Below are positions 25,849 through 36,345 of a stretch of 64,000 nucleotides of DNA, piece by piece (the first letter of the stretch is position 1; every line of letters starts with the position of its first letter). Source of the stretch: Caldilineales bacterium (GTDB taxonomy: Bacteria; Chloroflexota; Anaerolineae; J102); NCBI GenBank assembly GCA_019695115.1, contig JAIBAP010000026.1, forward strand, positions 1-64,000, read 5' to 3'. Position numbers and translations under genes: made by a program. Below the pieces are notes generated by a model, which was given only the letters and a program-made list of their open reading frames with translations, had not been told where the DNA came from and made no database searches.

Positions 25849-26080
25849 CACGCCCACGTGCGGATTGTGTGTGCAGGGACCGCACCTGGGGGTGCGGACT
25901 CCGCTAGGGATGGCCATGATCGCGCATATCTGCGGAGGGGAGCACGCCCACGTGCGGATTGTGTGCAGGAGCCGCACGTGGGCGTGCGGACTCCGCTATC
26001 AGAGGACTTCTGCGGAGGGGAGCACGCCCACGTGCGGATTGTGTGTGCAGGGACCGCACCTGGAGGTGCGGACTCCGCTA
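25849..26080. repeat. three copies of a palindromic repeat CACGCCCACGTGCGG
   Basis: Copies at 25849-25905, 25943-25998 and 26023-26080. Each has an arm CACGCCCACGTGCGG, a TTGTGTGCAGG-type loop and a complementary arm, then GACTCCGCTA. Copy 2 is a perfect 15-bp hairpin, while copies 1 and 3 carry changes in the right arm. Copies 2 and 3 share the lead-in CTGCGGAGGGGAG. They fill the fdhA/methyltransferase convergent gap (25831-26146), in which no gene is visible. Confidence 0.93.
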
Positions 26081-26146
26081 TCAATGGTGGGGGTGCCGAC
26101 GCCGCTAGGGATGGTCATGATCGAGGTGTAGGACGCTGAACCGCGC

Positions 26147-29433: not shown

Positions 29434-32265
29434 ATGTCCAAGAGCAAAGTCGCAATCCTGCGCACCTCCCCTCGCACCGTCCTGGCCGACTATCACCGGC
29501 TGATGAATCTGGCGGGCTATCAGGACGTCATCGCCAAAGACGCCGACACCGCCCTCAAGGTCAACATTTCCTGGCATTTCTTCTACCCTGGCAGCTCGAC
29601 CACACCCTGGCAGCTGGAGGGCGTCATCCGGGCTATGAAGCAGGATGGCTACGACCCCAACCTGATCCACGCCTGCCACAACCGCACCGTCGTCATCGAC
29701 GCCCACCTGGGCGAGCGCGAGAACAAGCAGATCAACGTCGTCCAGGCGCACGGCCTGCGCAACATCCACCTTTACGAAGGCGAGGAGTGGATCCACATTC
29801 GCGAGGCCGTGGGCGACCTGGCCGACAAATTCCTCGTCCTCAACGACGTTTACCCTGGCGGTTTCTACATCCCCCGGCGCTTCATCGGCGAGAATATCAT
29901 TCACTTGCCGACGGTGAAGTGTGTACACCCCGATACCGAGATCGTATTGGCAAATGGCGACCTGGTGCGTATCGGCGATCTGGTGGAGAACGAACTGAAG
30001 CATGGTGGCGCTATCGTCGATGAGGATGGCGACACACGCATCGCCGCACGGGCGGGCTTGCTTAGTCTGTCGGATGGCGGTCAGTTGGGGCCACAGGCCA
30101 CGCGCTATTTTTGGCGCACACCGCTCAAAGGACGGACGATTTGGCGGGTGCGCACCAGAACCGGACGCGAGGTCAAAGCCTCGGCCGAGCATCCCTTCCT
30201 CACGCCGCAGGGCTGGCGCCGGGCGGCATCGCTGCAAGTGGGCGACCGTATCGCCATCCCCCGAAAGATCGCCATCACCGGCCAGAGCCAACCCTTGCCG
30301 CGGCTGCAAAAGACCTATGGCCAGACCTCGACCAGGTGGATGAACATCCCTGCGACCACCTCGCCGGATTTCTGGCGCTGGCTGGGCTATTTCATGGCCG
30401 AAGGCTGGATGCAGCCGATGTCGACTAGTTGCCGATTCTGGTTTAGCAATGCCGATTCGGCCATCCAGTCCGACTACATCGACTTGAGCAAACGCATCTT
30501 CGGTCTGGAGCCGACGCAACGAGCAGATGAACCGTACACCTTCTACTTCGATTCATTGCAAATGCAGGAGTTCTTTGGCTTGCTCGGTCTGACGGCGCCC
30601 CTCAATGCCGGCACGAAGCACGCGCCTGCACTCTTGTTCCGTTGCCCAGATGACGAGATCGCCGCCTTCCTCCAGGGCTATTTCGATGGCGATGGCGCTG
30701 TGGGGCAGCGCGATGGTCTGCATGCTGTCACCAAGAGCGAACGGCTGGCAGGGCACCTGCACTATCTGTTGGCGCGGTTGGGCGTCGTAGCGTTCAAGGG
30801 GCCGCGGTGGAGTCGTTCTGAAAAAGGTGGCGAGAAGCGCTGGTATCACGAAATAGCGGTGTATGGCGATGAATTGGTCGCACTCAGCCGCCACATCCGC
30901 CTGCTCAGTGCGCATAAACAGGAGCGCCTGGAGCAGCTGGTTGCCCGCCGGCAGAGCAACAAGCGCCCCTCCAATTGGGATACCATCCCCGTGGCGCCGG
31001 AAACCTTCAGATCTGTGCGCGAGGGACTGGGCTTCACACAGGCCTCCACCGGACGCCCTTCCTCGGTCAACAACATTGAGAACCGCTATACCCAACCCAC
31101 CCGTCCGCTAGTTCAGTATTTCGTCGAGCGATTCGAGCAGGCCGACACGGCGAAAACCTACGCCAGCCAAATCGCAGAGATGGCGATGTTGGCGCGTGAG
31201 GACATGGCCTGGGATCACATCGTTGCCATCGAAGAGATCGAAGCGGATTGCGAGCATCTCTATGATTTCACGATGGAGGCGGAACCCAATTTTGTCGGCA
31301 ACGGCATGGTGCTGCACAACACCCACATCTTCACCACCACCACCGGCGCCATGAAAAACGCCTTTGGCGGGCTGCTGAACGAGCGCCGTCACTGGACGCA
31401 CCCGGTCATCCACGAGACGCTGGTGGACCTGCTGCTGATCCAGAAGCACATCCACCGCGGCGTCTTTGCGGTCATGGATGGCACCTTCGCCGGCGATGGC
31501 CCCGGCCCGCGCTGCATGGTTCCCTATGTCAAGAACGTCCTCCTGGCCTCGGACGACCAGGTGGCCATCGACGCCATGGCCGCCAAGCTCATGGGCCTGG
31601 ACCCGATGTCGATCAAGTTCATCCGCCTGGCCCACGAACAGGGGCTGGGCTGCGGCGACCCGTCCGAGATCGAGGTCGTCGGCGACGAGGAGGTGGGCCG
31701 CCAGAACTGGCATTTCGTCGGCCCCTTCCAGCAAATGACCTTCGCCAGCCGCATGCAGCACAAAATCTATTGGGGGCCGCTGAAGAAGCCGATCGAGTGG
31801 TCATTGAAGACGGTGCTGGCGCCGTGGAGCTATCTGGCCTCGGTGCTCTACCATGACACCTTCTGGTACCCGTTTATTGGCAAGCAAAAGATGCAGGCGG
31901 CGCTGAACAGCGACTGGGGCCGGCTCTTCCGCAACTGGGAGACGGCTCGCTCCGACAGCCAGGGCTACCCCAACGTTGGTTCCGAGGCGCCGGAATTGCA
32001 GCGGGCCGGGATGTCGGCCTTCTGGCGCTCGTGGGGCATCCTGTGGACGGCGCTGAGCGAGGCGCCGGAGGTGGCGGCGGCGCGGCGGCGGCAACTCCCT
32101 TCTGCCAACGGCCACCAGCCGCCGCTCCTGGCCGGCGAAGCAGAACAACCATCGCCGGAGCCAGACCAGGCCACGACCGCCCGGCGGGCGCTGCCCCTCG
32201 CGCTTGTGCTCCTCAGCCTGCTCTTGTTCATCCTGGGCCGGCGGCGCAGGCGAGCGCAATCATAG
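29434..32265 (+). CDS. DUF362 protein interrupted by an intein
   Basis: The 943-residue precursor consists of an N-extein (residues 1-162), a 467-residue intein (163-629) and a C-extein (630-943). Joined, the exteins restore IIHLPTVK-THIFTTTTGAMK followed by NAFGGLLNERRHW, the conserved core of DUF362 proteins (function unproven; often linked to iron-sulfur or anaerobic metabolism). The C-terminus carries a Pro-rich linker and one transmembrane helix (LPLALVLLSLLLFILG) with a basic tail, so the spliced protein of about 476 residues is probably membrane-anchored. The gene is single and divergent from the metal ATPase. Confidence 0.88.
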   Translation: MSKSKVAILRTSPRTVLADYHRLMNLAGYQDVIAKDADTALKVNISWHFFYPGSSTTPWQLEGVIRAMKQDGYDPNLIHACHNRTVVIDAHLGERENKQINVVQAHGLRNIHLYEGEEWIHIREAVGDLADKFLVLNDVYPGGFYIPRRFIGENIIHLPTVKCVHPDTEIVLANGDLVRIGDLVENELKHGGAIVDEDGDTRIAARAGLLSLSDGGQLGPQATRYFWRTPLKGRTIWRVRTRTGREVKASAEHPFLTPQGWRRAASLQVGDRIAIPRKIAITGQSQPLPRLQKTYGQTSTRWMNIPATTSPDFWRWLGYFMAEGWMQPMSTSCRFWFSNADSAIQSDYIDLSKRIFGLEPTQRADEPYTFYFDSLQMQEFFGLLGLTAPLNAGTKHAPALLFRCPDDEIAAFLQGYFDGDGAVGQRDGLHAVTKSERLAGHLHYLLARLGVVAFKGPRWSRSEKGGEKRWYHEIAVYGDELVALSRHIRLLSAHKQERLEQLVARRQSNKRPSNWDTIPVAPETFRSVREGLGFTQASTGRPSSVNNIENRYTQPTRPLVQYFVERFEQADTAKTYASQIAEMAMLAREDMAWDHIVAIEEIEADCEHLYDFTMEAEPNFVGNGMVLHNTHIFTTTTGAMKNAFGGLLNERRHWTHPVIHETLVDLLLIQKHIHRGVFAVMDGTFAGDGPGPRCMVPYVKNVLLASDDQVAIDAMAAKLMGLDPMSIKFIRLAHEQGLGCGDPSEIEVVGDEEVGRQNWHFVGPFQQMTFASRMQHKIYWGPLKKPIEWSLKTVLAPWSYLASVLYHDTFWYPFIGKQKMQAALNSDWGRLFRNWETARSDSQGYPNVGSEAPELQRAGMSAFWRSWGILWTALSEAPEVAAARRRQLPSANGHQPPLLAGEAEQPSPEPDQATTARRALPLALVLLSLLLFILGRRRRRAQS
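29920..31320 (+). other. LAGLIDADG-type intein in the DUF362 gene
   Basis: Starts at Cys163 (CVHPDTEIVLANGDLVRIGD, block A) and ends at Asn629 in MVLHN, with Thr as the +1 residue. Block B is VKASAEHPFLTPQGW. Two endonuclease motifs are visible: LGYFMAEGW and LQGYFDGDGAV. Block F/G is HLYDFTMEAEPNFVGNGMVL then HN. All residues needed for splicing (Cys1, block-B His, penultimate His, terminal Asn, Thr+1) are present, so it should be active. Size is typical of a full-length intein with homing endonuclease. Confidence 0.92.
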
Positions 32266-32292: not shown

Positions 32293-32329
32293 TGCCCCTG
32301 CGGCTGCACTCAGAGCAGCCGCAGGGGCA
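32293..32329. terminator. convergent bidirectional hairpin TGCCCCTGCGGCTG
   Basis: A perfect 14-bp stem with a 9-nt loop between the 3' ends of the DUF362 and glycosyltransferase genes. Its right arm lies inside the last codons of the glycosyltransferase. It probably ends transcription from one or both sides. Confidence 0.65.
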
Positions 32330-33386
32330 AGCCAAACGCCGTCGCCAAATCCGTCCCCACCTGCTCCCAGGCAAAACGCTCGGCATTGGCCCGCCCGGCC
32401 ACTGACAGCCGCCGTGCCAGGTCGGGGTCGGCCAACAGCCGCAGGATGTGGCCGGCCAGCCCTTCCACATCGCCGACCGGCGCCAACAGCCCGTTTTCTT
32501 CCTGCCGGATCAGGTCCGGGATGGCCCCGGCGCTGGTGCTGACCACCGGCAGACCGCTGGCGCTGGCTTCGATCAACGTCAGTGGCAGGTTGTCGATGGC
32601 CGAGGTGTTGAGAAAGATGTCGGCGGCGTCATAGGTCGGGGCCACGGCAGCGGCGTCCAGGTGGCCGCAGAACCTGACCCCCGCACGTTGTTCGGCCTCG
32701 ACCTGACGCCTTAGCTCGGTCATCAGGCTCCCGCCCCCGGCCAGGGCGAGGGTGGCGGCAGGGTGAACGGCCTGGATGCGGGCGAAGACGGCCAGGGCGT
32801 CGGCCGGGCGGTAGCGCGGCTCCAACTGCCGCAGCCAGAGGAGGTTGGGAGCCAGTGGGCCGCGCGGTCGAAAACTGAAGTTCTGGATCGGGACGATGTT
32901 GGGCACGACGCGGGCATGCAGGCCGACCTGGGCGAAAAGCCGGGCCTGGCTGGGCGTCAGCGCCAAGAGGGCGTCGTAGCGCTGTAGCAGCGGACGGGCC
33001 AGCCAGCCCAGGCGGGCCAGGAAGGCAGCCGCCTCGCCGCCGTGATAGCTGAGCACCAGCCGCTTGCCCCAGCGTCGCGATAGCAGGCCCACCACGGCCG
33101 GCATGAAGCCCCACCATGAGGCGGCATGGACGTGCAGCACTTGCCAGTCAGCGCGGGTGGCGCGCAGTTGGCGAGCGATGGCAAACACCTGGGCGAGGGG
33201 CAGCAGCAGGCGCCCAGCCCGCCCCTGCTGGCGCAACCGGGGCAGATCGGTGTTCACCCGCGTCACACGGGCGCCGTCGCGCTCCAGGCAGTCGGCCAGG
33301 ATGGCGCACTGCACCGAGACGCCGCCCGGTCGCGGCGGGAACGGCCCCAGGATGGCGATGCCGGCGTCGAAGAAGGGCGATGTCAT
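32310..33386 (-). CDS. GT4-family glycosyltransferase
   Basis: A 358-residue GT-B enzyme. The N-terminus AILGPFPPRPGGVSVQCAIL carries the Gly-rich loop. The donor domain has LLWLRQLEPRYRPADALAVF, the motif DNLPLTLIE (D-x7-E variant) near residue 275, and SAGAIPDLIRQEENGLLAPV. It is the last gene of the second minus-strand polysaccharide operon, after the CapK-like ligase and the O-antigen ligase. Glycan assembly is the likely role and the sugar is unknown. The gap before it (33387-33470) is a heptamer array. Confidence 0.87.
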   Translation of the reverse strand: MTSPFFDAGIAILGPFPPRPGGVSVQCAILADCLERDGARVTRVNTDLPRLRQQGRAGRLLLPLAQVFAIARQLRATRADWQVLHVHAASWWGFMPAVVGLLSRRWGKRLVLSYHGGEAAAFLARLGWLARPLLQRYDALLALTPSQARLFAQVGLHARVVPNIVPIQNFSFRPRGPLAPNLLWLRQLEPRYRPADALAVFARIQAVHPAATLALAGGGSLMTELRRQVEAEQRAGVRFCGHLDAAAVAPTYDAADIFLNTSAIDNLPLTLIEASASGLPVVSTSAGAIPDLIRQEENGLLAPVGDVEGLAGHILRLLADPDLARRLSVAGRANAERFAWEQVGTDLATAFGLPLRLL

Positions 33387-33414
33387 TCAGCGGTCACGAT
33401 GGGATCGCCACCGC

Positions 33415-33484
33415 CCCGGCGACACGGAACACGAAACACGCAACATGCAACACGGAACACTCCTCACGTCTCACGCCTCACTCT
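33415..33484. repeat. heptamer array with graded unit change
   Basis: Units in strict 7-bp phase: ACGGAAC, ACGAAAC, ACGCAAC, ATGCAAC, ACGGAAC, then ACTCCTC, ACGTCTC, ACGCCTC. The AC start of each unit is held while the other positions drift. It runs into the stop-codon region of the CapK-like gene. Confidence 0.95.
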
Positions 33485-34847
33485 CCGTCCCCGTGATCAC
33501 CTCGGAGATGAAGAAACGGCGTTTTCCGGCCGGGGTGGTGGGGATGGCGTCCACCAACTCCAGGGTGCAGCGGAGGTCTGGCCCCATGAAGCCCCGGAAG
33601 GTCTCGTCGATCAGCCGCCGCTGCGCCTGGCCAAAACTCTCATCCACCACCAGCCGCACCAGAACGTCATCTACCTGGCGCTGGATGACCTGAAAGGCCC
33701 GCACCGAGGGCAGGCGGCTGGCAAAGAAGCCGGTGAACTGGTGGGCCGAGAGCCAATGGCCGTCGGCCGTGAGGAAGAGGTCGGTCAGGCGGCCTTCCAG
33801 ATGGCCGAGGCGGGGCAGGCCGCGACCGCAGGGGCAGGGCGTGGGATCGAGGCAGGCCACATCGCGGATGTTGTAGCGCAAAAACGGCACGGCGGTGGCT
33901 TCCAGGTTGGTCAGCACCACCTCGCCCAATTCGCCAGCGGGCACACGGCGGCCGTCGCGCACGATCTCGATCACATAGCTTTCGGCGTTGATGTGCAGAC
34001 CGGTGTGGTGGTCGCACTCGCAGGCGATCTGCATGCCATCGCCGCCGTACTCGTCGAAGACCCGCCCCGGCCGGAAGGCGTGCTCGATCGTCTCGCGCAT
34101 GTGCGCGGTCAGCATTTCGCCGGTAGACATAACCACCGGAACAGAGACGCTGAGTTCTTCCCGGTTCATATAGGCGGCCAGGTAGTAGAGGGTGGAAGCG
34201 TAGGATCGCAGCATCGAGGGTCGGTCGTGGGCCAACTGGCGGGCATGGGCAGCGAGGACGTCCTCGGCCAGGTTCTGGGCCGGGAGCCAGCGATGCCGCA
34301 ACATCATCCATTCCAGCTTGTCCAGCAGGGGGAAGCCGCGCAGCCCGCGGTTGCCAGCCATGGTGAAGGTGGTGTAGCGATCGCCGAAGCGATAGCCCGC
34401 CATCTCCCACCACCTGAACAAGCCCGCCCATTTCTTCGCCTTCTGGGTTTTGGTCGTCCAGTAGTGCAGCCGTTCGGCGGTGGAGCCGCTGGAGGCGGCA
34501 GGGATGAGCTGGTCATGGGGGAGAGAGTGGTCGCGCAGGGCGTCCTGGTAGTGGCGGTTGATGACGGATTTATCGACGATGGGCAGGAGGGGGAGGTCGT
34601 CGGTGGTCTGGATGTCGTCCGGCTTGAGGCCGCGCTCATCCATCACGTCACGGTAGAAGGGCACGTTGGTATAGACATGGGCGATCAGCCGCCGCAATTT
34701 TTGGTTTTGCAGCTGGCGCACTTGTTCCGGCGACCACCATTGCGATGCCTCCAACCCGCGCAGGTACGGCATGACCTGGCCGTAGCCGGCGATGGTCGCG
34801 CCCACGGGCAGGGCGAGGGAACGGAGGAAGTGGGTGTAGAGGCTCAT
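33471..34847 (-). CDS. CapK/PaaK-like adenylate-forming enzyme
   Basis: A 458-residue protein of the phenylacetate-CoA ligase-like family, as found in capsule loci (CapK). The ATP/AMP-binding loop reads AASSGSTAERLHYWTTK (about residue 117), the motif FDEYGGDGMQIACECDHHTG corresponds to the A5 region, ETAVPFLRY-like sequence appears as EATAVPFLRYNIRDVACLDP (A7/A8), and CPCGRGLPRL is a typical zinc-like Cys pair. The C-terminal domain has GKRRFFISEV. It may activate an acyl group for transfer to the glycan or lipid. Catalysis in polysaccharide loci is unproven. Confidence 0.85.
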   Translation of the reverse strand: MSLYTHFLRSLALPVGATIAGYGQVMPYLRGLEASQWWSPEQVRQLQNQKLRRLIAHVYTNVPFYRDVMDERGLKPDDIQTTDDLPLLPIVDKSVINRHYQDALRDHSLPHDQLIPAASSGSTAERLHYWTTKTQKAKKWAGLFRWWEMAGYRFGDRYTTFTMAGNRGLRGFPLLDKLEWMMLRHRWLPAQNLAEDVLAAHARQLAHDRPSMLRSYASTLYYLAAYMNREELSVSVPVVMSTGEMLTAHMRETIEHAFRPGRVFDEYGGDGMQIACECDHHTGLHINAESYVIEIVRDGRRVPAGELGEVVLTNLEATAVPFLRYNIRDVACLDPTPCPCGRGLPRLGHLEGRLTDLFLTADGHWLSAHQFTGFFASRLPSVRAFQVIQRQVDDVLVRLVVDESFGQAQRRLIDETFRGFMGPDLRCTLELVDAIPTTPAGKRRFFISEVITGTESEA

Positions 34848-34881
34848 GCGGATTGTGGATTGCGAATTGTGGAATATCCAG
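34846..34881. repeat. GTGGATT/GCGAATT heptamers
   Basis: Four units (GCGGATT, GTGGATT, GCGAATT, GTGGAAT) in 7-bp phase in the short gap upstream of the CapK-like start codon. Confidence 0.85.
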
Positions 34882-34902
34882 CTTCGATGTCGCCATCCGT
34901 GC

Positions 34903-36345
34903 TCACTCGCCCAACCCCACTCCCATCGCCCCGCCCATCACCGACCAGAAAACGATGTTGGCGTAGATGGAGTAGTTGTTGTCGAAGGCGCCAGTGGGGA
35001 GGACATAGGCCAGCAGGATGACCCAGGCAGCCAGGAGGGGCGAGGGCGGCGCCTGGCGACGAAAGCGCAGCGTCAGCCGCAACAGGGCCAGGGCAACGGC
35101 GGCCATGAGGGCCAGGTAGGCGCCCAAGAGAACGACGCCGCCCGAGACCAGGAAATTGAGGTAGCTGTTGTGGGTGCTGGGCAGGACATGGACGTTGGCG
35201 CCGGGCCGGAAACCGGCGCGCGCGGCCAGGCGGCCAAAGCTGCCCCAGCCCACACCCAGGGCCGGGTTCTGCCGGACGAGTTGCAGGCCCGTCTGCAGGG
35301 CTTCAAGGCGGTAATCGACCGGCGATTCGGCGGTCAGGCGCTCGCCGGCGGCCGAATCCTCCAGGCTGAGCCGGCCCGTTCCCCAGGCCAGGGTGAGGGC
35401 GATGGCCCCGGCGGCCAGCAGTGGCAGACCCAGGCGGCGGAAACGTGGGAAAACGAGCGCCGAGACCAACAGCGACAGCAGGGCCGCCAGCCAGCCGGAG
35501 CGGTTGTAGGTGAGGTAGACGGCGGCCAGGTAGAGGAGACTCAGCCCGGCCAGGAGCAGGCCCCGCCGTCGTCCGGGGCGGGCCTGGAGTTGCTCGATGG
35601 CCAGGGCCAGCAGCAGGGCCAGGGTGACGGCGATGTAGGCCGGATGGCCGAGGACGGCCGCCACTTTGCGGATGCCGGGGGCGTAGAACTCGGCTGTGCT
35701 CTCGGCCCGGAAGAGTGTCCAACCTGTCAGTTGTTCGCTGATCGTCAGGACGGCGACGATGGCGCCCACCGCCATCAAGGTCGCAGCCAGAAGGCGGAAC
35801 TGAGGGCGGGTGAGGATGAGATGGCGGGCGATCAGGTAGGCGATGAGCGCGACCAGGAAGCTATCGAACACGGCCTGCAGGCCCCACAACCAGCCGTTGA
35901 TCGAGCGCCAGGCCGACAGAGCCAGGGCCAGGACGAACACGGGCAGCGCCGCCTCGACCAGGGTGAGCGGGGCCAGCCGCCTGCGCCCACGGGCGATCTC
36001 GGCCAGGAGAAAGAGCAGCAAAAAGCCGCCGACGACGCGGGTGAAGCCCAGGTCGGGCACGCCGGCGGGCATGTTGAGGTTGAGGGGCAGGTAGTTGGCG
36101 AAGGGCGTGAGGAAGAGCCAGACCAGGAAGCCGGCCACCGGGTCGAGCAGGATCAGGCCGATGGCGGCGAGCATGACGATGAGGGCTGTCATCTGCGCAG
36201 CCAGATCGGGCTGCTGCACCAGCAGCCAGCCGTAGCCGGCCATGACGACCACGGCCGCCAGGATCAGGAGGCTGCTGAGGGCGACGGCCACAAGCCGGCG
36301 GCGCGGCCAGGCGGAGGGCTGTGGTTGCCTTTCCATGCCGTTCAT
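34903..36345 (-). CDS. O-antigen ligase/polymerase-like membrane protein (Wzy/WaaL family)
   Basis: A 480-residue protein with about 11-12 hydrophobic segments. A large external loop near residues 315-390 holds ALQTGLQLVRQNPALGVGWG and VLPSTHNSYLNFLVSGG, the GxG and H-N-x-x-L pattern of the O-antigen ligase/Wzy_C (PF04932) family. It would polymerise or ligate lipid-linked glycan at the outer face of the membrane. Its start overlaps the stop of the 2178-aa gene upstream by 4 bp, and a CapK-like gene follows, so the operon order supports a polysaccharide role. Confidence 0.87.
   Translation of the reverse strand: MNGMERQPQPSAWPRRRLVAVALSSLLILAAVVVMAGYGWLLVQQPDLAAQMTALIVMLAAIGLILLDPVAGFLVWLFLTPFANYLPLNLNMPAGVPDLGFTRVVGGFLLLFLLAEIARGRRRLAPLTLVEAALPVFVLALALSAWRSINGWLWGLQAVFDSFLVALIAYLIARHLILTRPQFRLLAATLMAVGAIVAVLTISEQLTGWTLFRAESTAEFYAPGIRKVAAVLGHPAYIAVTLALLLALAIEQLQARPGRRRGLLLAGLSLLYLAAVYLTYNRSGWLAALLSLLVSALVFPRFRRLGLPLLAAGAIALTLAWGTGRLSLEDSAAGERLTAESPVDYRLEALQTGLQLVRQNPALGVGWGSFGRLAARAGFRPGANVHVLPSTHNSYLNFLVSGGVVLLGAYLALMAAVALALLRLTLRFRRQAPPSPLLAAWVILLAYVLPTGAFDNNYSIYANIVFWSVMGGAMGVGLGE

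Follow-up and report, generated by a model that had tools for sequence, protein, structure and literature searches.

Inteins generally prefer conserved sites (PMC2814812), and 62% of bacterial inteins reside in replication, recombination and repair proteins (PMC5874633). Among inteins of known structure, those closest in sequence to the element described here are TliVMA and PhoVMA, archaeal inteins that interrupt the P-loop of V-type ATP synthase subunit A (VMA-b site; PDB 7qss, 7qsu and 7qst; PMC8966425). TliVMA combines a HINT domain, a LAGLIDADG domain and an HTH-like accessory domain that follows the nuclease and precedes the C-terminal HINT segment, PhoVMA is without nuclease active-site residues, and accessory domains have been hypothesized to help homing inteins reach additional or different targets (PMC8966425). 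Bacterial hosts outside replication are represented by intein-containing RtcB (NF038162) and other intein 'exception' models of NCBIfam.

Here we describe an intein in a DUF362 protein encoded in 64,000 nucleotides of a Caldilineales bacterium (Chloroflexota; contig JAIBAP010000026.1, positions 1 to 64,000), referred to below as the window. In a sequence search of the PDB, the VMA inteins rank first (E 2e-16); the domain order of TliVMA recurs in the DUF362 intein, and nuclease decay is common to the DUF362 and VMA groups. The VMA inteins differ, however, in host and site, are ~22% identical, and have no HTH described between block B and block C (PMC8966425), unlike those DUF362 alleles that carry the module we call HTH1. 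The nearest relatives at another site, among 400 genomes of the phylum, are SMC P-loop inteins (G720 and G533; E 6e-50 and 2e-41), which share the length class and domain order of the DUF362 intein but lie in the P-loop of the SMC ATPase (GPNG[SA]GK/C; a slash marks an insertion point or splice junction throughout) and are ~24-33% identical to the DUF362 inteins. In SMC proteins of two Chloroflexota genomes other than the window's, the inteins follow directly on the P-loop lysine (L136:2-5170 and L137:2365-7827). RtcB inteins differ from the DUF362 intein in both host and site. No paper containing both 'DUF362' and 'intein' was found in the open-access literature, and the NCBIfam matches included no model for an intein-bearing DUF362 host. 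With the same insert at this position in eight scattered genomes, the DUF362 site is a genuine new intein site, although inteins of this kind are well known.

A reading made earlier from the sequence alone (the sequence-only reading) had regarded a host outside replication and nucleotide metabolism as unusual. This was overstated, as more than one third of bacterial inteins lie elsewhere (PMC5874633), and the other inteins detected in this genome (G000) also lie in such proteins: acetyl-CoA decarbonylase/synthase alpha/beta (C28, L218:1904-7501, minus strand; 1866 aa, at least two inteins, the last ending right before CGCFECIV, which we read as a metal-cluster motif); a frame for SufB, of Fe-S cluster assembly (C104, L219:1890-6515, minus strand; 1542 aa, at least two intein segments); a nucleotide-sugar dehydrogenase (C22, L220:1649-4597, plus strand), where the C-terminal end of the intein falls at CIPLDPHY, close to where the catalytic cysteine is expected; and RtcB RNA ligase (C43, L221:1033-4026, plus strand), a member of the known intein-containing family NF038162.

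Architecture of the DUF362 intein

The precursor gene is organized as follows.

29434-32265, plus strand: DUF362 precursor open reading frame, 943 aa, no internal stop
29434-29919, plus strand: N-extein, DUF362 residues 1-162, ending ...NIIHLPTVK; 96% identical to the inteinless genus mate G018
29920-31320, plus strand: whole intein, 467 aa, Cys1 to Asn467 (precursor residues 163-629)
29920-30264, plus strand: N-terminal part of the HINT splicing domain, with blocks A and B (SAEHPF, residues 88-93; TIGR01445, E 2e-13; eight-allele alignment)
30310-30357, plus strand: short linker at the position where five other alleles have HTH1, a ~55-aa transposase-like module lacking here
30361-30957, plus strand: LAGLIDADG homing endonuclease domain (PF14528; alignment; Foldseek matches to PI-PfuI, PI-TkoII and I-DmoI)
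30400-30402, plus strand: block C acid Glu161, in WLGYFMAEG
30691-30693, plus strand: block E acid Asp258, in LQGYFDGDG
30979-31203, plus strand: accessory XRE-like HTH2 region, following the endonuclease and preceding the C-terminal HINT segment; G023 lacks it
31204-31320, plus strand: C-terminal part of the HINT splicing domain, with blocks F and G (LYDFTM...NGMVLHN; TIGR01443; alignment)
31321-32262, plus strand: C-extein, starting THIFTTTTGAMKNAFGGLL... (PF04015, E 1e-14); 80% identical to G018

The C-extein closes with a hydrophobic helix and an RRRRR tail, followed by the stop codon at 32263-32265. The boundaries of the intein given in the sequence-only reading were reproduced to the base, as was its description of a full-length intein with splicing and endonuclease motifs: block A is represented by CVHPDTEIVLANG, with Cys1 as nucleophile, S88-A-E-H91 forms the TxxH-type motif of block B, two LAGLIDADG motifs follow, and the C-terminal junction VLHN/T provides His466, Asn467 and a +1 Thr. 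Loss of splicing residues, which would have spoken against a functional element, was looked for; Cys1, His91, His466, Asn467 and the +1 Thr are all kept. Pfam recognizes Intein_splicing (E 9e-20) and LAGLIDADG_3 (E 2e-13) in the precursor, together with a DUF362 match (E 1e-14) that is split by the intein, and NCBIfam recognizes intein_Nterm (TIGR01445, 2e-13) and intein_Cterm (TIGR01443, 0.005). The DUF362 model (PF04015; gathering score 24) scores 75 bits in the inteinless protein L004, where the match runs across the insertion site, and 55 bits in the window protein, which the intein interrupts. The AlphaFold2 model of the intein has a mean pLDDT of 89, with the lowest values in the linker, and its Foldseek matches are intein crystal structures, in keeping with a HINT fold; TliVMA ranks first (7qss, E 4e-28), followed by related VMA inteins, PI-PfuI and PI-TkoII.

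Chance is excluded as an explanation of this signal. It is scarcely credible that the locus is a pseudogene or an assembly artefact, with an insert that goes unspliced or has no counterpart in the cell: the source does appear to be a metagenome assembly of 135 contigs, and its nearest named relatives are MAGs, but the frame stays open for 963 codons on a 71-kb contig, no splicing residue has been lost, and the identical codon carries the insert in seven independent assemblies.

Insertion site and empty alleles

The in-frame insert is exactly missing from homologous host alleles of genus and family mates. Inteinless alleles, which the sequence-only reading had suggested seeking in close relatives, number at least 14 within the same family, the two genus mates G018 and G019 among them, and split the query exactly at residues 162/630 (K/T); two further genomes of the family yielded host fragments only. 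The empty site in relatives reads HLPTVK/THIFTTTTGAMK. The same reading had placed the intein in the most conserved stretch of DUF362, and this was borne out, since the most conserved of 441 20-mers across 90 host proteins, KTHIFTTTTGAMKNAFGGLL, begins one residue before the insertion, with the intein placed directly behind the first residue of this stretch. At the DNA level, 23 of 40 insertion-site nucleotides are at least 95% invariant among 110 empty alleles, which would suit a homing enzyme well as a target. In an intein-free planctomycete homologue of the host (L058:8-1120), Cys replaces Thr at the insertion position (PTIKCHIYTTTT).

Distribution and horizontal movement

A search for the same insertion site in other DUF362 proteins, also proposed earlier, recovered a homologous intein at the identical codon in seven further genomes (G023, G117, G236, G323, G369, G771 and L033/G741), giving eight carriers with the window; six of the seven belong to the window's bacterial class and one is Myxococcota-like. 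Wherever the C-terminal junction can be read (seven alleles), the +1 residue is Thr; the penultimate His is replaced, by Ser, in G117 only. Bacterial intein-like (BIL) proteins have variable, non-homologous flanks and frequently miss the +1 nucleophile; the element does not match this type, its flanks making up one conserved host protein and its +1 residue being Thr in those seven alleles.

Presence is rare and patchy: the intein occurs in 6 of 396 genomes class-wide; among genomes that have the host gene, it occurs in 2 of 20 of family f50 and in 3 of 12 of family f10; and the window's own family has it in 1 of ~17. A scan of GTDB genomes returned 80 host loci, spanning Chloroflexota, Planctomycetota, Acidobacteriota, Gemmatimonadota, Latescibacterota, Myxococcota and others, with the intein in one, L033. 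The genome holding it (G741) is labelled Proteobacteria, and its contig has an ORF whose end we read as a MYXO-CTERM-like tail; no host gene was found in the order mates of this Myxococcota-like carrier at E 1e-30. Neither the intein nor a junction pattern matched anything in the viral contigs searched, phages had no family member but distant inteins of at most 25% identity, and among the plasmid matches listed there were just distant RecA-type inteins.

The host proteins fall into two deep subfamilies, ~53-57% identical, both of which contain the intein, and by sequence comparison the intein and host-protein trees conflict. Intein and extein identities are 59% and 56% for the window versus G771, 55% and 72% for G236 versus G771, and 79% and 84% for G771 versus G023, which come from different families, while G771 and G117, of one family, share 87.5% of extein and 65% of intein positions. 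Whole-gene transfer as the origin of the shared intein was rejected, as hosts follow their own taxa: in the host tree L033 groups with Myxococcales hosts and the window's protein with that of its genus mate. The window intein also has a GC3 of 0.73, compared with 0.81-0.89 in neighbouring genes and exteins. As its nearest same-site homologues are just 50-59% identical, recent mobility of the window copy cannot be dated.

The bin of G369 holds both an intein-plus (L126, C396) and an intein-minus (L172, C197) allele of the host gene, identical over 104 bp and then separated by 6 synonymous differences within the last ~20 bp before the site. We read this as a population in which the intein is polymorphic and a short stretch beside the site has been co-converted, though a strain mixture or misassembly could partly account for the fork.

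Accessory modules and nuclease state

On the alignment, accessory HTH domains come and go between alleles. HTH1, which follows block B and precedes the first LAGLIDADG motif, is present in five alleles and missing from the window and G023; its best Pfam match is HTH_Tnp_ISL3 (E 2e-4 in L033, under the curated cut-off). HTH2 is found in every complete allele but G023; PF01381 (HTH_3) matches the homologous region of L033 at E 6e-4, under the Pfam cut-off, and was undetected by Pfam in the window copy. These weakly scoring HTH assignments also rest on the alignment and, for HTH2, on model helices at 360-408.

The endonuclease varies as well. The aligned catalytic-position acids are intact in the window, L033 and G771. 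In the window the block C residue is Glu rather than Asp, a point against the homing reading, although PI-TkoII (2cw7) shares this Glu in the alignment. The block C acid is replaced by Lys in G117, the block E acid by Asn in G023, and the two positions are Ser and Lys in G236/G323. In one pair with small counts, G236 versus G323, dN/dS is 0.15 for the N-terminal HINT segment, 0.31 for the endonuclease, 0.49 for HTH2 and 0.08 for the host, a pattern that fits splicing under selection with a nuclease under relaxed selection, as in the homing cycle (PMC1654191).

Such losses among same-site alleles, together with the missing HTH1 of the window copy, could mean that the window intein is a splicing-competent relic, its endonuclease already inactive and its inheritance vertical within the lineage. 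We regard this as a serious but distinctly less probable reading, given that the copy keeps both acids, as do L033 and G771, that both genus mates are empty, and that the GC3 of the intein still falls short of that of its host. The element is very probably a bifunctional class 1 homing intein that self-splices and whose LAGLIDADG endonuclease homes into empty alleles, a horizontally spreading parasite; the window copy is probably splicing-competent and possibly still homing. The whole 943-aa precursor would be translated, after which the HINT domain, through Cys1, block B His91, His466, Asn467 and the +1 Thr, would excise itself and ligate ...PTVK to THIF... to give an intact 476-aa DUF362 protein, a prediction that rests on the intact residues and conserved exteins. 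The endonuclease, with the HTH accessory modules, would cut intein-free alleles at the codons for HLPTVK/THxFTTTTGAMK, and repair of the cut allele would copy the intein in; nuclease decay with retained splicing in several relatives would then represent the homing cycle. The anatomy, the empty alleles, the same-site alleles in two host subfamilies and two phyla, the incongruent trees and the nuclease decay are observed directly; splicing and DNA cutting are inferred, the latter with evolutionary traces.

The host protein

DUF362 and LarA (DUF2088) belong to a common Pfam clan, CL0471 (PMC11770544). In the model of the inteinless host (pLDDT 79), the first seven Foldseek hits are LarA-like racemases, with E values of 0.003-0.02 (none below 0.001) and a TM score of ~0.35; a sequence search of solved structures found none for the host, and hhalign of the host against LarA homologues, with shallow alignments, was not significant. 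Of the LarA residues His108, His174, Lys184 and His200, His174 and Lys184 lie ten apart, as do the invariant H160 and K170 of the host (H-x9-K), and two further DUF362 proteins of G741 have the same H-x9-K-N. A resemblance to the lactate racemase (LarA) fold, and with it an active-site role of the motif, is plausible on these models; if the mapping holds, the intein may lie one residue before the histidine that matches the catalytic histidine of LarA.

This position invites two further readings. An intein adjoining a putative active-site histidine could be regulatory, with conditional splicing that turns the host protein on to the host's benefit, as the precursor would presumably stay inactive; we consider this very improbable, since the rare, patchy presence looks parasitic and no regulatory motif was found. 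It is similarly doubtful, to a high degree, that the intein serves as a post-translational switch of a LarA-like metal- or cofactor-dependent enzyme, spliced according to redox or metal state, a reading that draws on its place one residue before the putative catalytic histidine and ~10 before a putative cofactor lysine, and on its being one of several metabolic-enzyme inteins of the genome.

The sequence-only reading had taken the insertion as a hint that DUF362 cannot function without this motif. The LarA-like fold lends plausibility to the active-site part of this claim, but the preference for conserved sites is general for inteins (PMC2814812), and the whole host gene is apparently missing in several relatives, most of them incomplete genomes; importance of the motif does not imply essentiality of the gene. 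Only two neighbours recur across host loci: a UbiA-type prenyltransferase, at 16 loci, and a protein that matches no Pfam family, at 13. As neither lies near the window copy, host function is not derivable from the neighbourhood. Downstream of the host (window 32310-36345, minus strand) lie a group 1 glycosyltransferase, an O-antigen ligase and a protein that has no Pfam match but is CapK-like by our reading; at 25858-26139, short GC-rich direct repeats (ARGDGHDR and CVQGPHLGVRTPL units) occupy an ORF that looks non-coding.

Conclusions

The intein adds a host protein and an insertion site for which no description was found in the literature searched. Its eight same-site alleles, which vary in two DNA-binding modules and in the stepwise loss of nuclease residues, provide natural variants for testing the accessory-domain hypothesis (PMC8966425). 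The insertion also highlights a key motif of a widely conserved DUF362 protein and suggests a LarA-type active site.
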